Position numbers and translations under genes: made by a program
The notes under the pieces: generated by a model
What the model was told of the DNA's origin: nothing
What the model saw: the letters and a program-made list of their open reading frames with translations, nothing else
The model's database searches: none
Part shown: positions 2,551 to 19,816 of the stretch, in pieces
Numbering within the stretch: position 1 is the first letter of the stretch
Layout of the letters: every line of letters starts with the position of its first letter
Virus record (IMG/VR): IMGVR_UViG_3300043410_002326
Coordinates: 1-20,327 of that record
Source of the DNA: a virus
Length of the DNA stretch: 20,327 nt
Direction: 5' to 3' (one strand)

Positions 2551-2862
2551 ATGTTAGTATCTAAAGGTTATCAAGAAGGTGATATTATTAGTTTCAAATT
2601 AGTCAATGGCGACGAAATTGTAGCAAGAATCGTTGACTCTGGTCCCAATGGATTTGAAATTGCAAAACCATGTACAGTAATGCCTAGTCCACAAGGTATG
2701 GGGCTTATTCAAAGTTTGTTTACTGCCGATGCAGATGCTAGCGTAGTATTACAAAAAGAACATGTTATTATGCATGCACCAAGTATAGATGCAATGCAGA
2801 AACATTATATTAAAACTACTACAGGTATTGAACCAGTTACTAGAGGTAGTATTATTACCTAA
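2551..2862 (+). CDS. Small Sm-like (SH3-type barrel) phage protein, function unknown
   Basis: A 103-aa protein. The N-terminal half, GDIISFKLVNGDEIVARIVD followed by a glycine turn and FEIAKPCTVMP, has the alternating pattern of an Sm/LSm-type five-strand barrel. In such barrels a conserved G-x-E after strand two and a KP-V strand are typical. Proteins with this look are common in marine T4-like phages and are often labelled Sm-like or LSm, but I cannot show RNA binding here. It follows the glutaredoxin gene by one nucleotide and has AGAGGA 4 nt before the ATG. It is joined to the next gene by TAATG, so it belongs to the same transcript. Fold assignment is moderate; function is open. Confidence 0.75.
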   Translation: MLVSKGYQEGDIISFKLVNGDEIVARIVDSGPNGFEIAKPCTVMPSPQGMGLIQSLFTADADASVVLQKEHVIMHAPSIDAMQKHYIKTTTGIEPVTRGSIIT

Positions 2863-3338
2863 TGTCATACACACTGAGTCCTTCTACATTAACTGCTACA
2901 AAAGAAAAAACATCTTTAAATCAAACTGTTACTGTAGTTCCTGGTGCATTTGATTCGGCAGTTACTAGTATATCTGTAATTAAAGGCGATAATACTTTGG
3001 GTAACATTGTTGTTACTAGTTTAACATCATCGTCGTTTAAAATAACTGGACAATATTATGATAATTGGTCAAAAACAATTGTCTATGAAGGGTCAACTCA
3101 AACAGGCGAAACTTGGGCTAACACGCTAGTAACTGCGTCTAAATGGTCTGAAATTGGTGCTAATTTAAATTTTGTTCAAAGTTATACAGCAGCAACTTCT
3201 CCTAGCACCAAAACTGCAAAATATTATGTGGTAGTGAATGGAACTGTTGCTAATTTGACGCTAACTCAAGTTATAAATAATGATTACACACCGGGCGCAC
3301 AGACGCTTGTTGAGTTTGTATCAAAAGGAAAAGTTTAA
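2862..3338 (+). CDS. Beta-rich putative virion-associated protein
   Basis: A 158-aa protein that I do not recognise by family. It is rich in Ser, Thr, Val and Asn, lacks Cys, and shows alternating hydrophobic/polar strands throughout, as in Ig-like or tail-decoration proteins of phages. There is no signal peptide or membrane segment. It is joined to the upstream gene and to the downstream PAAR gene by one-base TAATG overlaps. Co-translation with a spike-tip protein suggests a role at the baseplate or spike, for instance as a hub accessory or adhesin. That role is inferred from context only. A T4-type late motif (TATAAATA at 3272-3279) lies within its 3' part and could additionally serve the PAAR gene. 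Confidence 0.8.
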   Translation: MSYTLSPSTLTATKEKTSLNQTVTVVPGAFDSAVTSISVIKGDNTLGNIVVTSLTSSSFKITGQYYDNWSKTIVYEGSTQTGETWANTLVTASKWSEIGANLNFVQSYTAATSPSTKTAKYYVVVNGTVANLTLTQVINNDYTPGAQTLVEFVSKGKV

Positions 3339-4759: not shown

Positions 4760-4984
4760 ATGAGTAACAAACGAGTTGAAGTTGAATACGAGCTTTACCC
4801 AGAAGAATCAGGCGAAATTGAAGAAGAAGACTACGGATTTGTTTTTGGTCCAGATGGTGAAATAAAAGCCATTTTTGTTCCAGATAATTTGCCTTTTAAG
4901 TTGCCCAAGAATATCAACAAAATAATGAAAATGTTGGGTATTACAAATTTAGAACAATTTAACGAAGATATAACCATTCATTGA
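4760..4984 (+). CDS. Small acidic phage protein, unknown
   Basis: A 74-aa acidic protein without recognised family. The N-terminal half is a stretch rich in Glu and Tyr. The middle reads FGPDGEIKAIFVPD, then LPFKLPKNINKIMKMLGI, which suggests a small beta hairpin followed by a helix. There is no signal or membrane segment. A G-rich ribosome site (AGGGGG) lies 6 nt before the ATG. Its last 26 bases overlap tail-to-tail with the end of the minus-strand SGNH-like gene. A rho-independent hairpin follows 6 nt after its stop, so it ends the lysis-region transcript. Confidence 0.8.
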   Translation: MSNKRVEVEYELYPEESGEIEEEDYGFVFGPDGEIKAIFVPDNLPFKLPKNINKIMKMLGITNLEQFNEDITIH

Positions 4985-5636
4985 TAATATGGTCATAAAG
5001 CAATTTATGACCTTTTCTATTTGCGTGGTAGTTATCTGGCCAAAAGAATTTGGGATTTGATTTCCATAGAGAAAATTTATGGCTTGATTTTATTATCACT
5101 TCAGTCCATGATAATTTTTGTTCGTGGTTAAAATTTTTGTAGTGTAGATCAAAAATCTTTCTCCACTCTACCGAATCCATATAGTAACTATCTCTGTAGG
5201 ATGGTATTAAAAATTCATTTATACTTGGTATTATTAAATCTATAAATTCATCTAGTTTAGTAAATTTTGCACACCCACCTATTACAGTCAATTTCAGATT
5301 TGGGTTATTTGTTTTGATATTTTCCAATTCGTTAACTACATAATTTAAATTAGATTCTATTATTTCTTTTGGAGTCAAATTTGCTATATCTTCGGATGAT
5401 GCTTGTCTAAGAGGATCAGTAAAAAATAATATAAAATGATCAAATGAATTATCCAAGATTGATAATGCAGAAGTTATAGACTCAATATTATTAAATCCAC
5501 CCCTTCCCACATTTACAACTTCATGCCCATCTTCTTGAAAATACTGGCTGATACCCCCATGAGTTACCGTGGCGCAACCATCAATTTGCTCCCACTCGCC
5601 CTGACTCCAACTATCTCCAGATATTAATACACGCAT
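4959..5636 (-). CDS. SGNH/GDSL-like hydrolase
   Basis: The only minus-strand gene in the window; 225 aa. It shows the order of SGNH blocks: block I GDSWSQGE near the N-terminus (S8 of MRVLISGDS as nucleophile; MRVLISGDSW places it at residue 9 if counted from the initiator), block II-like VNVGRGGFNN, a weak block III region (LFFTDPLRQ, with no canonical GxND), and block V WPDNYHANRKGH with Asp and His in DxxH spacing. Such enzymes are usually esterases or deacetylases acting on glycans or lipids. The imperfect block III makes catalysis plausible but unproven. No signal peptide is seen. It is divergent from the radical SAM gene (21 bp between the starts) and convergent with the upstream small gene. 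The pair looks like an inserted cargo module. No clear ribosome site precedes the ATG. Confidence 0.82.
   Translation of the reverse strand: MRVLISGDSWSQGEWEQIDGCATVTHGGISQYFQEDGHEVVNVGRGGFNNIESITSALSILDNSFDHFILFFTDPLRQASSEDIANLTPKEIIESNLNYVVNELENIKTNNPNLKLTVIGGCAKFTKLDEFIDLIIPSINEFLIPSYRDSYYMDSVEWRKIFDLHYKNFNHEQKLSWTEVIIKSSHKFSLWKSNPKFFWPDNYHANRKGHKLLYDHIINEWLYLR
4991..5022 (+). terminator. Intrinsic terminator lying inside the end of the convergent SGNH gene
   Basis: GGTCATAAA (4991-4999) pairs perfectly with TTTATGACC (5004-5012) around a GCAA tetraloop (GNRA type), and TTTTCTATTT follows on the + strand. It lies 6 nt after the stop at 4984, so it should end the + transcript before it runs antisense into the SGNH gene. 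The same bases encode the GHKLLYDH stretch of that minus-strand protein. Confidence 0.75.
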
Positions 5637-5644
5637 AAATGAAA

Positions 5645-5652
5645 AATAAATA
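5645..5652 (+). promoter_or_regulatory. Putative T4-type late promoter giving a leaderless radical SAM mRNA
   Basis: AATAAATA ends 5 nt before the GTG start codon at 5658. T4 late transcription starts about 6 nt after the motif, which would be the initiation codon itself. No Shine-Dalgarno sequence is present between the upstream in-frame stop (5640-5642) and the GTG. It forms a divergent pair with the minus-strand motif at 5667-5674. Confidence 0.5.
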
Positions 5653-5657
5653 ATTCC

Positions 5658-6575
5658 GTGAACGAATATTTATTGGCTACTGACTATCTAGAAGCAACAA
5701 ATCATTTTCCAAGAATACAATATCTAGAAACCATGACAACCTATGCTTGCACCCTAAGTTGCAAGTGGTGCACCAATTATTCTGATTACGGAATGAAGGG
5801 TGGGTATGTAAAATGGGAAACCATAAAACCAACATTAGATAAATTGTTTTCTAGAATGCGTGTTGATTGCTTTGGGTTTATAGGGGGCGAACCATTTCTT
5901 AATCCAGAACTTGAAACATGGGTTCGTGAATTTAAAAAGAATTACCCTTTTGTAACCTTAATGATTCTTACGAACGGACAACTATTCCATAAAAATAAAT
6001 GGATACTTGACTGTATGGAAGAATATGGAATGATTTATTTAAAAGTATCTGAACATCAGCCAGGCGAAGCATACTTTGAGGACATGGTTTCTGCTATTTT
6101 AAATCGTTTTAAATGGGAACGTGTTGGATCAGAGTTATATTTTTACCAAGAAAAAATTCTAGATTTTGAGATTGCTAAATTACCAACGTTTTTAAAAACA
6201 TATCAGGGAGAATATGGTTCAATGAAACCATATGATAGTAATCCTGATGAAGCATTTAAAATTTGTAATCAACAAATTTGCCCTATTTTAGAAGATGGTA
6301 AATTATATAAATGCAGCACTGTTGGTATGCTAGAACGTGTACTGCGTGATCACAATCAATTAGATGATCCAGATTGGAAACCATATTTGGATACAGGATT
6401 ATCGCTAGATTGCACCGACGAAGAACTTCGTGTGTGGGCAGATAATTTTGGAAAATCTAATCCTATATGTAAAATATGCCCAACACACAAAGATAATCCA
6501 TATTACCCACATTATCAAAATGTTACTAGTAATCTAAAACCAAATTTTTATCAAAAAATAATAAAAATAAATTAG
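5658..6575 (+). CDS. Radical SAM enzyme with Cys-rich C-terminal (SPASM/Twitch-like) region
   Basis: A 305-aa radical SAM protein. The [4Fe-4S]/SAM motif is CTLSCKWC (C31, C35, C38, the standard CxxxCxxC). It is followed by the GGEPFLNPEL motif (77-86) that contacts the SAM amino group, and an ILTNGQ strand. The C-terminal part has further cysteines, C203, C208, C219 (in DGKLYKCS), C271 and C274. This resembles a Twitch/SPASM domain holding an auxiliary cluster, as in peptide- and sugar-modifying radical SAM enzymes. The reaction is unknown. The GTG start is chosen because a stop lies in frame just upstream and the next ATG (M26) would cut into the first barrel strand. There is no ribosome site; a late-promoter motif ends 5 nt before the GTG. 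It is paired divergently with the SGNH-like gene. Confidence 0.88.
   Translation: MNEYLLATDYLEATNHFPRIQYLETMTTYACTLSCKWCTNYSDYGMKGGYVKWETIKPTLDKLFSRMRVDCFGFIGGEPFLNPELETWVREFKKNYPFVTLMILTNGQLFHKNKWILDCMEEYGMIYLKVSEHQPGEAYFEDMVSAILNRFKWERVGSELYFYQEKILDFEIAKLPTFLKTYQGEYGSMKPYDSNPDEAFKICNQQICPILEDGKLYKCSTVGMLERVLRDHNQLDDPDWKPYLDTGLSLDCTDEELRVWADNFGKSNPICKICPTHKDNPYYPHYQNVTSNLKPNFYQKIIKIN
5667..5674 (-). promoter_or_regulatory. Putative T4-type late promoter for the SGNH-like gene
   Basis: On the minus strand this reads AATAAATA, matching NATAAATA. It is the only ATAAATA I find on the minus strand of the window, and it lies about 30 bp upstream of the only minus-strand gene. The predicted transcript start is near 5661, giving a leader of about 25 nt. 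It is inside the first codons of the divergent radical SAM gene. Confidence 0.5.
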
Positions 6576-10001: not shown

Positions 10002-10026
10002 AACCCGCTTCGGCGGGTTTATTTTT
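10002..10026 (+). terminator. Intrinsic terminator with UUCG loop
   Basis: AACCCGC (10002-10008) pairs with GCGGGTT (10013-10019) around a TTCG tetraloop, followed by TTATTTTT. A GC-rich 7-bp stem, a super-stable UUCG loop and a U-tract make this the clearest terminator in the window. It begins 4 nt after the stop at 9998 and separates the early block from the virion-type genes. Confidence 0.92.
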
Positions 10027-10034
10027 GATAAATA
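10027..10034 (+). promoter_or_regulatory. Putative T4-type late promoter giving a leaderless mRNA
   Basis: GATAAATA starts right after the terminator U-tract and ends 5 nt before the ATG at 10040. The predicted transcript start coincides with the A of the ATG. There is no Shine-Dalgarno sequence; the bases before the ATG are the terminator tail and this motif. The placement directly behind a terminator supports an independent transcription start here. Confidence 0.6.
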
Positions 10035-12749: not shown

Positions 12750-12757
12750 AATAAATA
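12750..12757 (+). promoter_or_regulatory. Putative T4-type late promoter giving a near-leaderless mRNA
   Basis: AATAAATA ends 6 nt before the ATG at 12764, so the predicted start of the late transcript is the base before the ATG. No ribosome site exists. It lies downstream of a consensus sigma70 promoter (12706-12734), suggesting early and late promoters in tandem. Confidence 0.5.
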
Positions 12758-12763
12758 CCCCTT

Positions 12764-14431
12764 ATGATATTTGGCTACTTAATGTTAGTGATTGCTATCA
12801 CTATTTCTGCGATTGCTGCTTGGTACAGTGTTGCTGGTTTGACAGCAATTTTTAGTGCGGCAGTAATTCCTGTTATTATAATGGGCGGTGCACTAGAGGC
12901 AGGTAAAATTGCCGCCACTGTTTGGTTACATAATAATTGGAAACGTGCTGGATGGGCATTTAAATCCTATCTAGTACCTGCTATTATATTTCTTATGCTT
13001 TTGACAAGCATGGGTATTTTTGGTTTCTTATCAAAAGCACACAGTGACCAGAGTTTGGTTACTGGAGATGCACAATCCAAGATTGCAATCTACGACGAAA
13101 AGATTAACACAGAACGAGATAATATCGCTACAAATAAAAAAGCACTTGAGCAAATGAATGCACAAGTAGATCAAATGTTGGGACGTAGTGATAGTGAAAA
13201 CGGTGCACAACGTGCAGTTAATATTCGTAAGAACCAAGCTAAAGAACGTGCTGCCTTACAAGCAGAGATTGTTAAATCTCAAAAAACAATTCAAAAGTTA
13301 CAAGAAGAACGTGCACCCTTGGCTGCAGAATTTAGAAAAGTAGAAGCAGAAGTCGGACCGATTAAGTATATCGCCGCATTCATTTACGGAGATAATCCAG
13401 ATCAAAACATACTAGAACGTGCAGTGCGTTGGGTTATTATTCTTATTGTTATTGTTTTTGATCCACTGGCATTGTGTTTAATTCTTGCTGCTAATAAACA
13501 GTTGGAATGGGCACGTCAAGGTACTGGTGGATGGGTACATGATGAGGAAGAAAAAACCGTTCCAGTAGTTACTGCGACAGCGGAACAACCAGAAGAGTCG
13601 CCACCTCACCCTGAACCTGCAGAAGAAGAATTTTTTGAACGTGGTAAATTAGTTGCACAAGCAGCAGATATTATTGATGAACAACATCGTGCAGAGCAAG
13701 CCAATATTGAAATGGCAAGTGTTGGTAACTGTCCATCATGTAACACACCATTAGTTGATGTTGGTGGTAAAGTGACATATTGCCCAAATCCAGAATGCAA
13801 AGTTATTGATCCAGAGTTACCACCGTTTGAAATTGAATCTGTAAAAGAAGATACTGATTTAAATATTCCTGTTTTAGAAAACGAGGAAATGTGGGCGCAG
13901 CGTGTAATAGATGAAAATAAAGAAACACCCACAGAGGAAGAAAAGTCAGTTGAAGTGGCACAAAATTTAGAAGACACGCCACCACCTCCAGTTGAAGAAC
14001 CAAAACCAGTTGATGAATTTAACACACCAATTCGTCGTGGTAATGATTATGCAGTTCGTTATCAAGGTAAAGTTTATAATTTAGATGCATTTAGTAAATT
14101 ACATCCTAATCTGTCTATACTTGCTGATAATGACAAAGAACCAGAGGAAACCACTTGTGGTTTTGGTGAAAAGTTTCCAGAAGAACCTAAAAAAGGTGAT
14201 TTATTCATTAGAACAGATTATCTACCAGATCGCTTATTCAAGTGGAATGGTAACAAGTGGATTGAAGTTGATAAATCTACAACTGATTCGTATGCATACA
14301 ACGAAGCGTATATAAAACACCTTATTGGTAAATTGCAAAATGGTGAATATGAAATTGAAGATTTGTCTGATGCCGAACGTGATCAGGTAGAGCAGCAAAT
14401 TGAACAAATAGTTAACACTAAAAATACCTAA
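12764..14431 (+). CDS. Multi-pass membrane, coiled-coil and zinc-ribbon protein, unknown
   Basis: A 555-aa multidomain protein of unknown family. Membrane segments lie at about residues 4-22, 25-44 and 68-90. A long charged coiled coil (about 100-195) follows, then another membrane segment (about 221-243, VRWVIILIVIVFDPLALCLI). The tail is an acidic/Pro-rich linker with a four-cysteine zinc ribbon (C323-PS-C326 and C340-PNPE-C345). A short module at about 468-504 (KGDLFIRTDYLPDRLFKWNG, then KWIEV) of a kind I associate with phage virion proteins comes next, and a final helix. The topology puts the coiled coil on one side of the membrane between two anchors. The combination is odd for a virion protein and fits a host-membrane factor. 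The start at 12764 is the only one that keeps the first helix. It has a sigma70 and a late promoter and no Shine-Dalgarno. Confidence 0.82.
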   Translation: MIFGYLMLVIAITISAIAAWYSVAGLTAIFSAAVIPVIIMGGALEAGKIAATVWLHNNWKRAGWAFKSYLVPAIIFLMLLTSMGIFGFLSKAHSDQSLVTGDAQSKIAIYDEKINTERDNIATNKKALEQMNAQVDQMLGRSDSENGAQRAVNIRKNQAKERAALQAEIVKSQKTIQKLQEERAPLAAEFRKVEAEVGPIKYIAAFIYGDNPDQNILERAVRWVIILIVIVFDPLALCLILAANKQLEWARQGTGGWVHDEEEKTVPVVTATAEQPEESPPHPEPAEEEFFERGKLVAQAADIIDEQHRAEQANIEMASVGNCPSCNTPLVDVGGKVTYCPNPECKVIDPELPPFEIESVKEDTDLNIPVLENEEMWAQRVIDENKETPTEEEKSVEVAQNLEDTPPPPVEEPKPVDEFNTPIRRGNDYAVRYQGKVYNLDAFSKLHPNLSILADNDKEPEETTCGFGEKFPEEPKKGDLFIRTDYLPDRLFKWNGNKWIEVDKSTTDSYAYNEAYIKHLIGKLQNGEYEIEDLSDAERDQVEQQIEQIVNTKNT

Positions 14432-14781
14432 TGCATAGTAATTTTATAACCCCTCCAGATTTTGTGGATGAACCTTTGCCATCTATCACTATAATAAATG
14501 CTACTTTATTAGAAGTTGAGATGATGGCAAAGATGTGCCAAGAAAGCGACGAACAATATAACATATACCTATATCGTTCAGAAATGAATGACATGGATTG
14601 GTTATATGCGGCTATAAATCGTAGTGAGGCAGTAGTTTTAAACACTATTGATCCAGAGTTTGACCATATTATGGATATGAAAAAAACTTATTTTTATGGG
14701 GATCGTGTTTTTGTTACTGATAGAAAACAACTGGCTAGCCCACTTCATTTTTTCTTATTAAGAAAAACACCTAATAAATAG
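14431..14781 (+). CDS. Small alpha/beta phage protein, unknown
   Basis: A 116-aa protein. The pattern PSITIINATLLEVEMMAKMC, then YNIYLYRSEMNDMDWLYAAI and EAVVLNTIDPEF, reads as strand-helix-strand-helix-strand, a small Rossmann-like or flavodoxin-like arrangement. The end, GDRVFVTDRKQLASPLHFFL, adds another strand and helix. No catalytic motif is recognised. The start shares a base with the preceding stop (TAATG), so it is coupled to the 555-aa membrane protein. Its last codons contain the start of the late motif used by the following bS21 gene. Confidence 0.8.
   Translation: MHSNFITPPDFVDEPLPSITIINATLLEVEMMAKMCQESDEQYNIYLYRSEMNDMDWLYAAINRSEAVVLNTIDPEFDHIMDMKKTYFYGDRVFVTDRKQLASPLHFFLLRKTPNK
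14773..14780 (+). promoter_or_regulatory. Putative T4-type late promoter upstream of bS21
   Basis: AATAAATA ends 7 nt before the ATG at 14788; the predicted transcript would carry at most a 2-nt leader. It overlaps the stop of the preceding gene. There is no Shine-Dalgarno sequence (GTGTACT lies between motif and ATG). Confidence 0.5.
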
Positions 14782-14787
14782 TGTACT

Positions 14788-15027
14788 ATGAGTAAATTTG
14801 AAAAATTTTTAATTTCTGGTAATAAGGTTACGGTCACCCATGATAATGTAGAAAAAGCACTTCGTAAACTAAAAAAGAAGGTTGCTGAATCTGGTGTTTT
14901 ACAAGAATTGCGTGATCGTGAAACTTATGAAAAACCAACCACTGCTCGTAAAAAAGCAAAAGCAGCCGCCAAGCGTCGTTGGAAAAAGAAACTAGCCGAC
15001 GAACAGCTACCCAAAAAACTGTACTAA
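14788..15027 (+). CDS. rpsU: Ribosomal protein bS21 homologue
   Basis: A 79-aa bS21-like protein. The order of motifs matches the bacterial family: an N-terminal strand (NKVTVTHDNVEKALRKLKKK), then the ESGVLQELRDRETYEKPT signature (bacterial bS21 has G-x-x-x-ELR-x-R-x-x-YEKP), then the basic C-terminal helix ARKKAKAAAKRRWKKKL. It is slightly longer at both ends than the host protein usually is. bS21 sits at the 3' end of 16S rRNA near the anti-Shine-Dalgarno site and affects which mRNAs initiate. Phage copies of bS21 are known from aquatic phages and are thought to exchange into host ribosomes. This gene itself lacks a Shine-Dalgarno site and lies 7 nt behind a late motif. The family call is firm; the effect is inferred. 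Confidence 0.93.
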   Translation: MSKFEKFLISGNKVTVTHDNVEKALRKLKKKVAESGVLQELRDRETYEKPTTARKKAKAAAKRRWKKKLADEQLPKKLY

Positions 15028-15269: not shown

Positions 15270-15298
15270 TTGCAAAATTCTGATATTTCGTGTATAAA
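15270..15298 (+). promoter_or_regulatory. Sigma70-type promoter of hsp20
   Basis: TTGCAA (15270-15275) and TATAAA (15293-15298) with a 17-bp spacer. It begins at the stop of the preceding gene. The same TATAAA is part of the late motif TATAAATA, so host sigma70 and a T4-type late sigma could both use this site, each starting near 15305. Confidence 0.65.
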
Positions 15299-15300
15299 TA
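15293..15300 (+). promoter_or_regulatory. Putative T4-type late promoter of hsp20 (exact TATAAATA)
   Basis: An exact match to the T4 late consensus TATAAATA. Unlike the leaderless cases it is followed by a leader of about 61 nt that has a hairpin at its predicted 5' end and an AAGGAG ribosome site before the ATG at 15367. Confidence 0.6.
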
Positions 15301-15366: not shown

Positions 15367-15819
15367 ATGACACAATTTAGCATTCAAACTATTGATCTTC
15401 CAAATCTTATTGCACATGTACACCGTCAAGCGGTTGGTTTTGACAGCCTATTTGAACGTCTGGATAAAACTTTTGTGAATAGTAAGACAGACGGAAACTA
15501 TCCTCCACACAACATCATCAAAGTAGATGAAACTCACTATGCTATTCAAGTAGCAGTTGCTGGTTTTGCGGAAGATGAACTTGATATTGAATTCCAAGAC
15601 AATATCATTACCGTCAAGGGCGAGAAGAAAACAAAGGATGAACAAGAGTACATCCATCGTGGCATTGGTCTACGTAGTTTCACTCGCAACTTCCCTGTTG
15701 GGGAGCATATGGAAGTCAAGGGTGCTACAGTGGTTAATGGTATCCTCGCAATCAGTATTGAGCACGTTGTTCCAGAAGAACAAAAGCCAAAAAAGATTGC
15801 TATCGCTTTCTCTAAGTGA
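15367..15819 (+). CDS. Small heat-shock protein Hsp20/IbpA-like
   Basis: A 150-aa small heat-shock protein, an ATP-independent holdase that keeps unfolding proteins soluble in the cytoplasm. The alpha-crystallin domain covers about residues 43-135. NYPPHNI at its start and the following YAIQVAVAGFAEDELDIEF are typical of IbpA-class proteins of proteobacteria and phages. The GIL triplet (G125-L127) ends the domain, and a C-terminal I-A-I (residues 144-146) matches the I-x-I motif for oligomer assembly. It is a complete protein with a strong AAGGAG site. It has its own combined sigma70/late promoter and leader hairpin and is followed by a terminator. Related genes are common in T4-like cyanophages and pelagiphages. 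Confidence 0.93.
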   Translation: MTQFSIQTIDLPNLIAHVHRQAVGFDSLFERLDKTFVNSKTDGNYPPHNIIKVDETHYAIQVAVAGFAEDELDIEFQDNIITVKGEKKTKDEQEYIHRGIGLRSFTRNFPVGEHMEVKGATVVNGILAISIEHVVPEEQKPKKIAIAFSK

Positions 15820-15833
15820 TATAATGTAACCAC

Positions 15834-15860
15834 AAGTGGGGGATCACCCCCCCACTTTTT
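15834..15860 (+). terminator. Intrinsic terminator after hsp20
   Basis: AAGTGGGGG (15834-15842) pairs with CCCCCACTT (15849-15857) around a 6-nt loop, followed by TTTTT-type bases (15856-15860). The stem is GC-rich. It separates hsp20 from clpS, which begins 14 nt later and has no obvious promoter of its own, so clpS expression probably relies on read-through. Confidence 0.88.
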
Positions 15861-15873
15861 AATAGGAACAATC

Positions 15874-16188
15874 ATGACTACAGTTGAAGATACTATCAAT
15901 AAACAAAAAATTCAAGTTAAAACAAATGTAAAACCTCCTAGTATGTTTAATGTCATTTACATTAATGATGAAGTGACTACTATGGAATTTGTAATTGAAA
16001 CCCTAACTTCCATTTTTGATCACACTCATGAAAAAGCCATGGAAATTACCATGAAAATTCATGAAGATGGTTCAAGTGTAGTAAGCACCCTACCATATGA
16101 AATTGCAGAACAAAAAGGCGTAGAAGCCACGCTAATGGCACGTAACAATGGCTTTCCTCTCAACGTTAAACTAGAACCAGCCAATTAA
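15874..16188 (+). CDS. clpS: ClpS-like adaptor of the ClpAP protease (N-end rule)
   Basis: A 104-aa ClpS. After an unstructured 20-residue N-terminus come PPSMFNVIYINDEVTTMEFV, then a helix (IETLTSIFDHTHEKAMEITM), KIHEDGSSVVSTLP and a last helix and strand. The N-degron pocket residues are visible by comparison with E. coli ClpS: N31, D32 and H63, plus the gate-like M37. ClpS brings proteins with Leu, Phe, Tyr or Trp N-termini to host ClpA, and it blocks some other ClpAP substrates. No ClpA or ClpP gene is in the window, so it would work with the host protease. AGGA lies 9 nt before the ATG. It abuts the nucleotidyltransferase gene with no gap. Confidence 0.92.
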   Translation: MTTVEDTINKQKIQVKTNVKPPSMFNVIYINDEVTTMEFVIETLTSIFDHTHEKAMEITMKIHEDGSSVVSTLPYEIAEQKGVEATLMARNNGFPLNVKLEPAN

Positions 16189-17999: not shown

Positions 18000-18080
18000 A
18001 TGAGTTGGTTCAATCACAAAAAACCTCACCCAAATCCACCTACGCCTGTGGAACCACGTAATGGTATTCCTAGTAGATAA
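18000..18080 (+). CDS. Proline-rich 26-aa micro-protein (possible)
   Basis: ATG at 18000 with a good GGAGA site 8 nt upstream (17988-17992), reading 26 codons to a TAA at 18078-18080. The product starts MSWFNHKKPHPNPPTPVEPR and contains six prolines and several basic residues. It fills the gap between the terminator and the kinase-like gene. The late motif of the next gene begins in its stop codon. The reading frame plus ribosome site support translation; the short length keeps it uncertain. I know no homologue. Confidence 0.55.
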   Translation: MSWFNHKKPHPNPPTPVEPRNGIPSR

Positions 18081-18086
18081 TAAATA
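18079..18086 (+). promoter_or_regulatory. Putative T4-type late promoter giving a leaderless kinase-like mRNA
   Basis: AATAAATA (it overlaps the stop codon of the 26-aa frame) ends 5 nt before the ATG at 18092. The predicted transcript starts on the A of that ATG. There is no Shine-Dalgarno site. Confidence 0.6.
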
Positions 18087-19027: not shown

Positions 19028-19813
19028 ATGGATCCGCTAACCCTCTTCGCCCTTGCAAATGGGGCGGTCAAACTCGTCAAAGAAGGCTGTAAACTTTATA
19101 AAGATATAAAGAGTGCCTCTGGGGACATCAAAGATGTTCTCAAGGATCTTGAATCTCAATTTAACGAACGCCACAAAGATCATCCACCAACTATAGCTGA
19201 GAAGAATCAGTACATAGAAGAAAAAAATCGCATCATTAATCTAAACAAGCAGGGTGGTGAAACTTCTAATATCTATACAGAGATTGGACAGCAATTGGGG
19301 GTATATTTTGACAACCTTCATAAATGCTATGCAATATTTGAGGAAGAAGAGCGTCGTAGTAAAACTGAAGTATATCATGGTGAAGACAGCGTGGGTAAAC
19401 GTGCTTTACAGAGAGTACTACTAAGAAAACAGTTAGACGCAATGCGAACAGAGCTTCGTGAAATAATGGTGTATCAAAGCCCACCAGAGTTGGGTGCATT
19501 GTGGACTGAAGTAGAAGAAATGATGCAAATAGTAGGAGCCGAACAATCAGTAGTAATTGCAGCGGAGATGAGAAGAAATGCCGAAGCTGCCCGTTTAAGA
19601 AAAAAACGAATTAAAAAAATTAAGTATAAAACAATTTGTTGGGCTTTAAGTTCGTTGGGGGTGCTTTATTTGGCATGGTTAATTTGGGCTATCGTAGAAA
19701 TACGAATGGAAGAAAAGCCAGAACTTGGTAGATGTTTAATACCCAAAGGTTCGTATGGGTATACTTGGTACAACAATCTAAAATGGGTTGATTGTGAAAT
19801 ATACCAAAAATAA
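19028..19813 (+). CDS. Helical membrane-anchored protein, unknown (261 aa)
   Basis: No recognised function. Residues 1-45 (LFALANGAVKLVKEGCKLYK, then DIKSASGDIKDVLKDLESQF) form a small hydrophobic/amphipathic helical region of a kind I recall from other T4-like phages of aquatic bacteria. The middle is long, charged and mostly helical (about 50-200, coiled-coil potential). A basic RLRKKRIKKIKYKT stretch precedes one membrane segment (about 210-231, TICWALSSLGVLYLAWLIWA). The C-terminal 35 residues have two Cys and the motif YTWYNNLKWVDCEIY. By the positive-inside rule the bulk lies in the cytoplasm and the Cys-containing tail in the periplasm. No ribosome site is evident; the gene starts 2 nt after the 18-aa frame. 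Confidence 0.8.
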   Translation: MDPLTLFALANGAVKLVKEGCKLYKDIKSASGDIKDVLKDLESQFNERHKDHPPTIAEKNQYIEEKNRIINLNKQGGETSNIYTEIGQQLGVYFDNLHKCYAIFEEEERRSKTEVYHGEDSVGKRALQRVLLRKQLDAMRTELREIMVYQSPPELGALWTEVEEMMQIVGAEQSVVIAAEMRRNAEAARLRKKRIKKIKYKTICWALSSLGVLYLAWLIWAIVEIRMEEKPELGRCLIPKGSYGYTWYNNLKWVDCEIYQK

Positions 19814-19816
19814 ATA
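19809..19816 (+). promoter_or_regulatory. Ambiguous ATAAATA upstream of a gene with Shine-Dalgarno
   Basis: AATAAATA overlaps the stop codon at 19811-19813 and lies 11 nt before the ATG at 19828. An AGGAGG ribosome site follows at 19819-19824, so initiation 6 nt after the motif would cut into that site. This copy may be chance. Confidence 0.2.

Follow-up and report, generated by a model that had tools for sequence, protein, structure and literature searches.

The late promoter of phage T4, TATAAATA at -13 to -6, is read by gp55 with gp33 and gp45 (PMC1524935). In the RaK2-like jumbo phages CBB and GAP32, ATAAATA was predicted as the late promoter through a motif search 5' of structural genes, and CBB has gp55 without gp33 or gp45 (PMC5259590). 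Given that earlier prediction, the motif is an element of a known kind. Leaderless phage transcripts are known from Thermus phage P23-45. The AR9 paper makes a general remark on leaderless phage transcripts, with AR9 leaders of 26-491 nt (PMC5312081). In huge phages that encode the ribosomal protein bS21, metatranscriptomes show late expression of bS21 together with structural genes (PMC9723584).

Window and relatives

The DNA analyzed, referred to as the window, was the entire 20,327-base virus record IMGVR_UViG_3300043410_002326. Its genes include those for NrdB, glutaredoxin, PAAR, cell wall hydrolase, radical SAM, bS21, Hsp20, ClpS, nucleotidyltransferase and exonuclease proteins. Genes were called as the longest open frames, part of which were covered by homology and annotation checks. 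The NrdB protein shared ~62% identity with NrdB of RaK2-like jumbo phages, and as much as 90-92% with NrdB of uncultured IMG/VR contigs. It was 76% identical to NrdB of the relatives G017 and G021, both of which also carry gp55. Motif statistics were obtained from 14 related jumbo-phage contigs (1.13 Mb). In the window, a gene of the Hsp20 family precedes a ClpS adaptor gene (15367-16188), and both were conserved in large relatives. Features of the window are given in Table 1.

Table 1. Genes, ATAAATA cores and other features of the window; distances take the first A of ATAAATA as their origin unless the row states otherwise
Feature	Position	Strand	Description
TATAAATA, role uncertain	3273-3279	+	Inside gene 2862-3338; 65 nt before PAAR gene
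GDSW-protein gene	4959-5636	-	Sole - strand gene; 225 aa, N-terminal GDSW motif
ATAAATA core facing the - strand copy	5646-5652	+	GTG 5658 of radical SAM is exactly 12 nt on; near-class spacing
Radical SAM protein gene	5658-6575	+	GTG start; opposed to GDSW gene
ATAAATA core for GDSW gene	5667-5673	-	Within radical SAM codons 4-6 (Tyr-Leu)
Terminator-like intrinsic hairpin with T run	10002-10019	+	Ends just 5' of the 10028 promoter
ATAAATA core, near class	10028-10034	+	12 nt before ATG 10040
ATAAATA core, near class	12751-12757	+	13 nt before ATG 12764
555-aa protein gene, conserved near-class promoter	12764-14431	+	Weak virion-structural PHROG match
ATAAATA core, near class	14774-14780	+	14 nt before bS21 ATG 14788
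bS21 ribosomal protein gene	14788-15027	+	Pfam PF01165, 2.6e-16
TATAAATA, possible far-class promoter	15294-15300	+	73 nt before Hsp20 ATG 15367
ATAAATA core, near class	18080-18086	+	12 nt before ATG 18092
ATAAATA outlier, fits neither class	19810-19816	+	18 nt before ATG 19828; SD-like AGGAGG between

Strand and orientation of ATAAATA

The original prediction had counted eight ATAAATA on the + strand and one on the - strand, and a search of the window gave exactly these numbers (Table 1). The total of nine was at chance level (10.6 ± 3.5 in dinucleotide shuffles), which rules out above-chance abundance as evidence, and only orientation and position were used. The 8:1 strand split was weak by itself (two-sided binomial p = 0.039).

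Outside the window, strand counts were strongly unequal and tracked gene direction. Between co-directional genes of the 14 relatives, ATAAATA occurred 87 times in sense and 2 times in antisense orientation (p about 1e-23), as expected from the claim that the orientation bias follows gene direction. The 20 other permutations of its letters occurred 16-46 times in sense and 6-27 times in antisense orientation in the same intergenic regions, and ATAAATA was the most lopsided among all 21. Within genes of the relatives, ATAAATA was depleted about fourfold on both strands compared with synonymous-codon shuffles, both in sense (33 vs. 130 expected) and in antisense orientation (TATTTAT, 30 vs. 111 expected; 3.7-fold), and permuted words had no comparable antisense loss. 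The words enriched 5' of genes were TAAATAC, ATAAATA and CTAAATA, plus the Shine-Dalgarno (SD) word TAAGGAG. A search of the motif flanks for a -35 element gave no signal. An intrinsic terminator was located directly 5' of the motif in 13 families.

Presence of gp55

A late-sigma gene of the gp55 type was found in the large relatives G017 (phrog_12791, 7.9e-65), G021 and G022, and also in 80 IMG/VR loci and in 9/9 cultured comparators. The window contained no gp55 gene; the window is merely a 20 kb fragment, so that this absence is uninformative. Pfam and PHROG models of gp45 had no match in the relatives, where control models were silent too. In G017 (L096:1872-3020), a radical SAM gene was located directly 3' of the gp55 gene.

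The T4-type promoter features present were a directional enriched core, no -35 element, sense placement 5' of genes, and gp55 in relatives. These support ATAAATA as a T4-type late promoter, presumably recognized by gp55 and active late. A promoter rather than AT-rich noise was the initial interpretation of the window, and the unequal counts outside it, together with gp55 in relatives, favor that interpretation.

Distance between ATAAATA and the start codon

Distance (d) to the start codon was counted with the first A of ATAAATA as origin. It was bimodal in the relatives, with a peak at exactly 12 nt (near class) and a broad hump at 22-40 nt (far class). There were 26 gene families at 12 nt, 11 at 11 nt, 4 at 13 nt and 4 at 14 nt, and only one family, that of the 19810 copy of the window, at 16-21 nt. 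The predicted +1 of this outlier would cut into its SD. Independently of gene calls, ATG occurred 29 times at offset 12, several-fold the typical offset count, and permuted words had no ATG peak at that offset. Among variant words, CTAAATA peaked at 12 and GTAAATA at 11. Start codons at d = 12 were 28 ATG, 2 GTG (GTG 5658 of the window among them) and 0 TTG. SD-like sites were found in 0/47 near-class and 76/118 far-class cases, a contrast partly fixed by geometry. A pyrimidine at -1 was in moderate excess in the near class (74 vs. 48%), and the YR initiator test of the near class gave moderate support only.

Near-class spacing was conserved. The NTAAATA word was kept at 11-14 nt in 48/52 distinct homologous upstreams of the 12764 family and in 40/51 distinct upstreams of the bS21 family. 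The bS21 gene of G017 had an SD and a TTG start, unlike the near-class promoter of bS21 in the window lineage. In nine gp55-bearing contigs outside the discovery set (G017 left out), ATAAATA-N5-ATG occurred 41 times vs. 5 for the reversed pattern. Five of the eight + strand copies in the window were near-class, with d of 12 nt (5646, 10028 and 18080), 13 nt (12751) and 14 nt (14774). The terminator that ends directly before the 10028 motif leaves only about 20 nt for a new transcript start.

Cultured phages differed in the near class. Phages T4, GAP32, RaK2 and S-PM2 had 0 genes at 11-14 nt and 17-32 at 22-40 nt. The near class was present in HTVC008M (11 genes at d = 12), Mosig (6) and RAS14 (8, with none at 11, 13 or 14). 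When near-class sites of cultured phages were compared with the deposited annotation, 16/18 were annotated start codons, and the annotated near-class genes of HTVC008M included tape measure, tube cap, baseplate wedge and DNA end protector genes. Phage GAP32 was rejected as a near-class example, as its two pattern matches were not annotated gene starts. One of two T4 pattern matches was inside uvsW and the other was off any annotated start. The pelagiphage HTVC008M (L465, 5000-50500) had 13 fused motifs at 11-14 nt vs. 5 leader-type motifs at 22-40 nt, and may thus depend mainly on leaderless late mRNAs.

The opposed gene pair

The gene order cell wall hydrolase, two small genes, GDSW (-) and radical SAM (+) was kept in seven contigs (L084-L090), with the GDSW and radical SAM start codons about 11 bp apart. 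The GDSW protein had no Pfam or PHROG match, and a search with the protein itself found no relatives; syntenic relatives of the block were found via the radical SAM gene.

The - strand copy (5667-5673) had been placed about 30 bp 5' of the sole - strand gene. Its position upstream of ATG 5636 was correct (37 nt from its first A; predicted leader about 25 nt), but the copy is inside the radical SAM open reading frame and not intergenic. A - strand ATAAATA inside the radical SAM codons was present in 7/7 syntenic relatives. The five radical SAM codons after ATG (AAA CAA TAT TTA TGT) were identical across all relatives, and only 23/103 amino-acid-invariant degenerate codons were identical at the nucleotide level. 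A second Tyr-Leu pair, six codons on, had five spellings across the window and relatives. Facing pairs of the same design, with cores inside or close to the opening codons of the gene opposite, were found at one more opposed gene pair, in seven additional contigs. From its conservation in frozen codons in all relatives, and from the recurrence of the embedded arrangement at another opposed pair, the - strand copy was concluded, on sequence grounds, to be a selected promoter.

The facing ATAAATA pairs of the seven additional contigs (G004, G005, G012, G014, G015, G016 and G017) were 29-45 bp apart and marked a small, solitary inverted gene in the neighborhood of tail-type genes. Their predicted transcripts would overlap at the 5' ends.

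The + strand copy, given in the original prediction as 14 bp from the radical SAM gene, starts 12 nt before GTG 5658, with 5 bases between. The two copies had also been termed divergent. It is the genes that diverge; the copies face each other (convergent) and the - strand copy is inside the radical SAM frame, and a divergent 5646/5667 pair was rejected. None of the seven syntenic relatives had ATAAATA at the + strand position, and a conserved + strand promoter at 5646 was also rejected. The 5646 copy is plausible as a promoter private to the window, and is probably a recent local one of the near class. A chance origin of this copy alone is possible, if not favored.

Interpretation and alternative explanations

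The preferred interpretation, which is considered quite likely, is a gp55-read late promoter used in two layouts, the near one giving leaderless mRNA. The core would be ATAAATA, or in looser form NTAAATA with C, T or A as the next base, a -10-like element that points in the reading direction of the gene and that would be read by host RNA polymerase in complex with the phage gp55 sigma. In the far layout (22-40 nt), the transcript would have a short leader, usually SD-bearing. With the T4 core at -13 to -6 (PMC1524935), the first A of ATAAATA would be at -12 and +1 would be 12 nt on. At the near-layout peak of exactly 12 nt, +1 would then coincide with the start codon's first base. The predicted product is a leaderless late mRNA, to be read by 5'-AUG recognition. 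The sparse zone at 16-21 nt would be expected of transcripts that either have no leader or have one with room for an SD. The - strand copy at 5667-5673 would drive the opposed GDSW gene.

Misassigned near-class starts, with an ordinary late promoter serving a later start codon or only later genes of the operon, are unlikely. Gene calls by longest open frame, and the fact that some near-class genes are singletons, would allow for such errors. However, internal in-frame SD starts were no more common in near-class genes (2/57) than in far-class (6/119) or other genes (44/453), homologous proteins align from the same ATG, and the 16 sites of cultured phages mentioned above are independently annotated starts.

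The AU-rich word of the near class could instead be a translation enhancer or a ribosome/S1 site in an mRNA whose transcription begins further 5'. The near class lacks an SD, and ribosome recruitment needs some signal. This alternative is nevertheless quite improbable: the same word also occurs at 22-40 nt with an SD between, its placement has one-nucleotide precision equal to the T4 distance from -12 to +1, some near-class motifs directly follow a terminator (e.g., that at 10002-10019), and the word is avoided on the intragenic antisense strand, which would be needless for an RNA signal. An AT-rich coincidence at both 5646 and 5667, with the - strand copy as mere Tyr-Leu coding, agrees with the chance-level total in the window, the missing + strand copy in relatives and the coding of Tyr-Leu by TATTTA, but is highly improbable given that the codons of the - strand copy are frozen in all relatives while the second Tyr-Leu varies, that TATTTAT is depleted in genes, and that the embedded arrangement recurs.

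Extending the leaderless interpretation beyond the window, it seems likely on balance that several T4-superfamily lineages (the uncultured jumbo lineage of the window, the pelagiphages HTVC008M and Mosig, and Stenotrophomonas phage RAS14) use leaderless mRNAs from start-codon-fused gp55 promoters to express a specific group of late genes. The group would include those for tail proteins, DNA-end proteins and phage bS21, and these phages would thereby have a second way of late translation, independent of the SD and missing from T4.

The analysis provides an uncultured lineage of jumbo phages with a tested map of its promoters. A core exactly 12 nt before the start would free a class of late phage proteins from the SD, and the near-class layout may be relevant to the presence of bS21 genes in such phages. 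Near-class spacing can also serve as a rule in the choice of start codons and in the search for late genes on phage contigs. Facing promoters suggest how a single inverted gene survives in a one-way late region: the codons of the neighboring gene conceal its promoter.

Comparison with known systems

The ordinary ATAAATA late promoter was already known, and no earlier description of the start-codon-fused subclass was found. A search of an open-access literature library gave no report of leaderless T4-type late transcripts. Translation from a 5' start codon, as predicted here, is shared with the leaderless phage transcripts of the AR9 remark and of P23-45, whose promoters are not gp55-type. Late bS21 is shared with the bS21-encoding huge phages (PMC9723584), and here bS21 has a late-type promoter; those phages are predicted to infect Bacteroidetes, and the available part of the source makes no mention of promoters or leaderless mRNAs.

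A relaxed first position is common to the motif studied here, the late promoter NATAAATA of cyanophage S-PM2 (PMC2984593) and CTAAATA of Aeh1 (PMC1524935), and CTAAATA variants are also used in the window lineage. Unlike this lineage, S-PM2 is without near-class genes. Compared with CBB and GAP32 (PMC5259590), the same 7-mer core, A/T-rich sequence downstream and the presence of gp55 were common features, whereas GAP32 had 0 genes with the motif 11-14 nt before ATG. Differences from T4 TATAAATA (PMC1524935) were that the leading T is not preferred here, that gp45 was not found in the relatives (controls silent), and that the start-codon-fused class is missing from T4. The core, the lack of a -35 element, the orientation and gp55 in relatives were alike in both.
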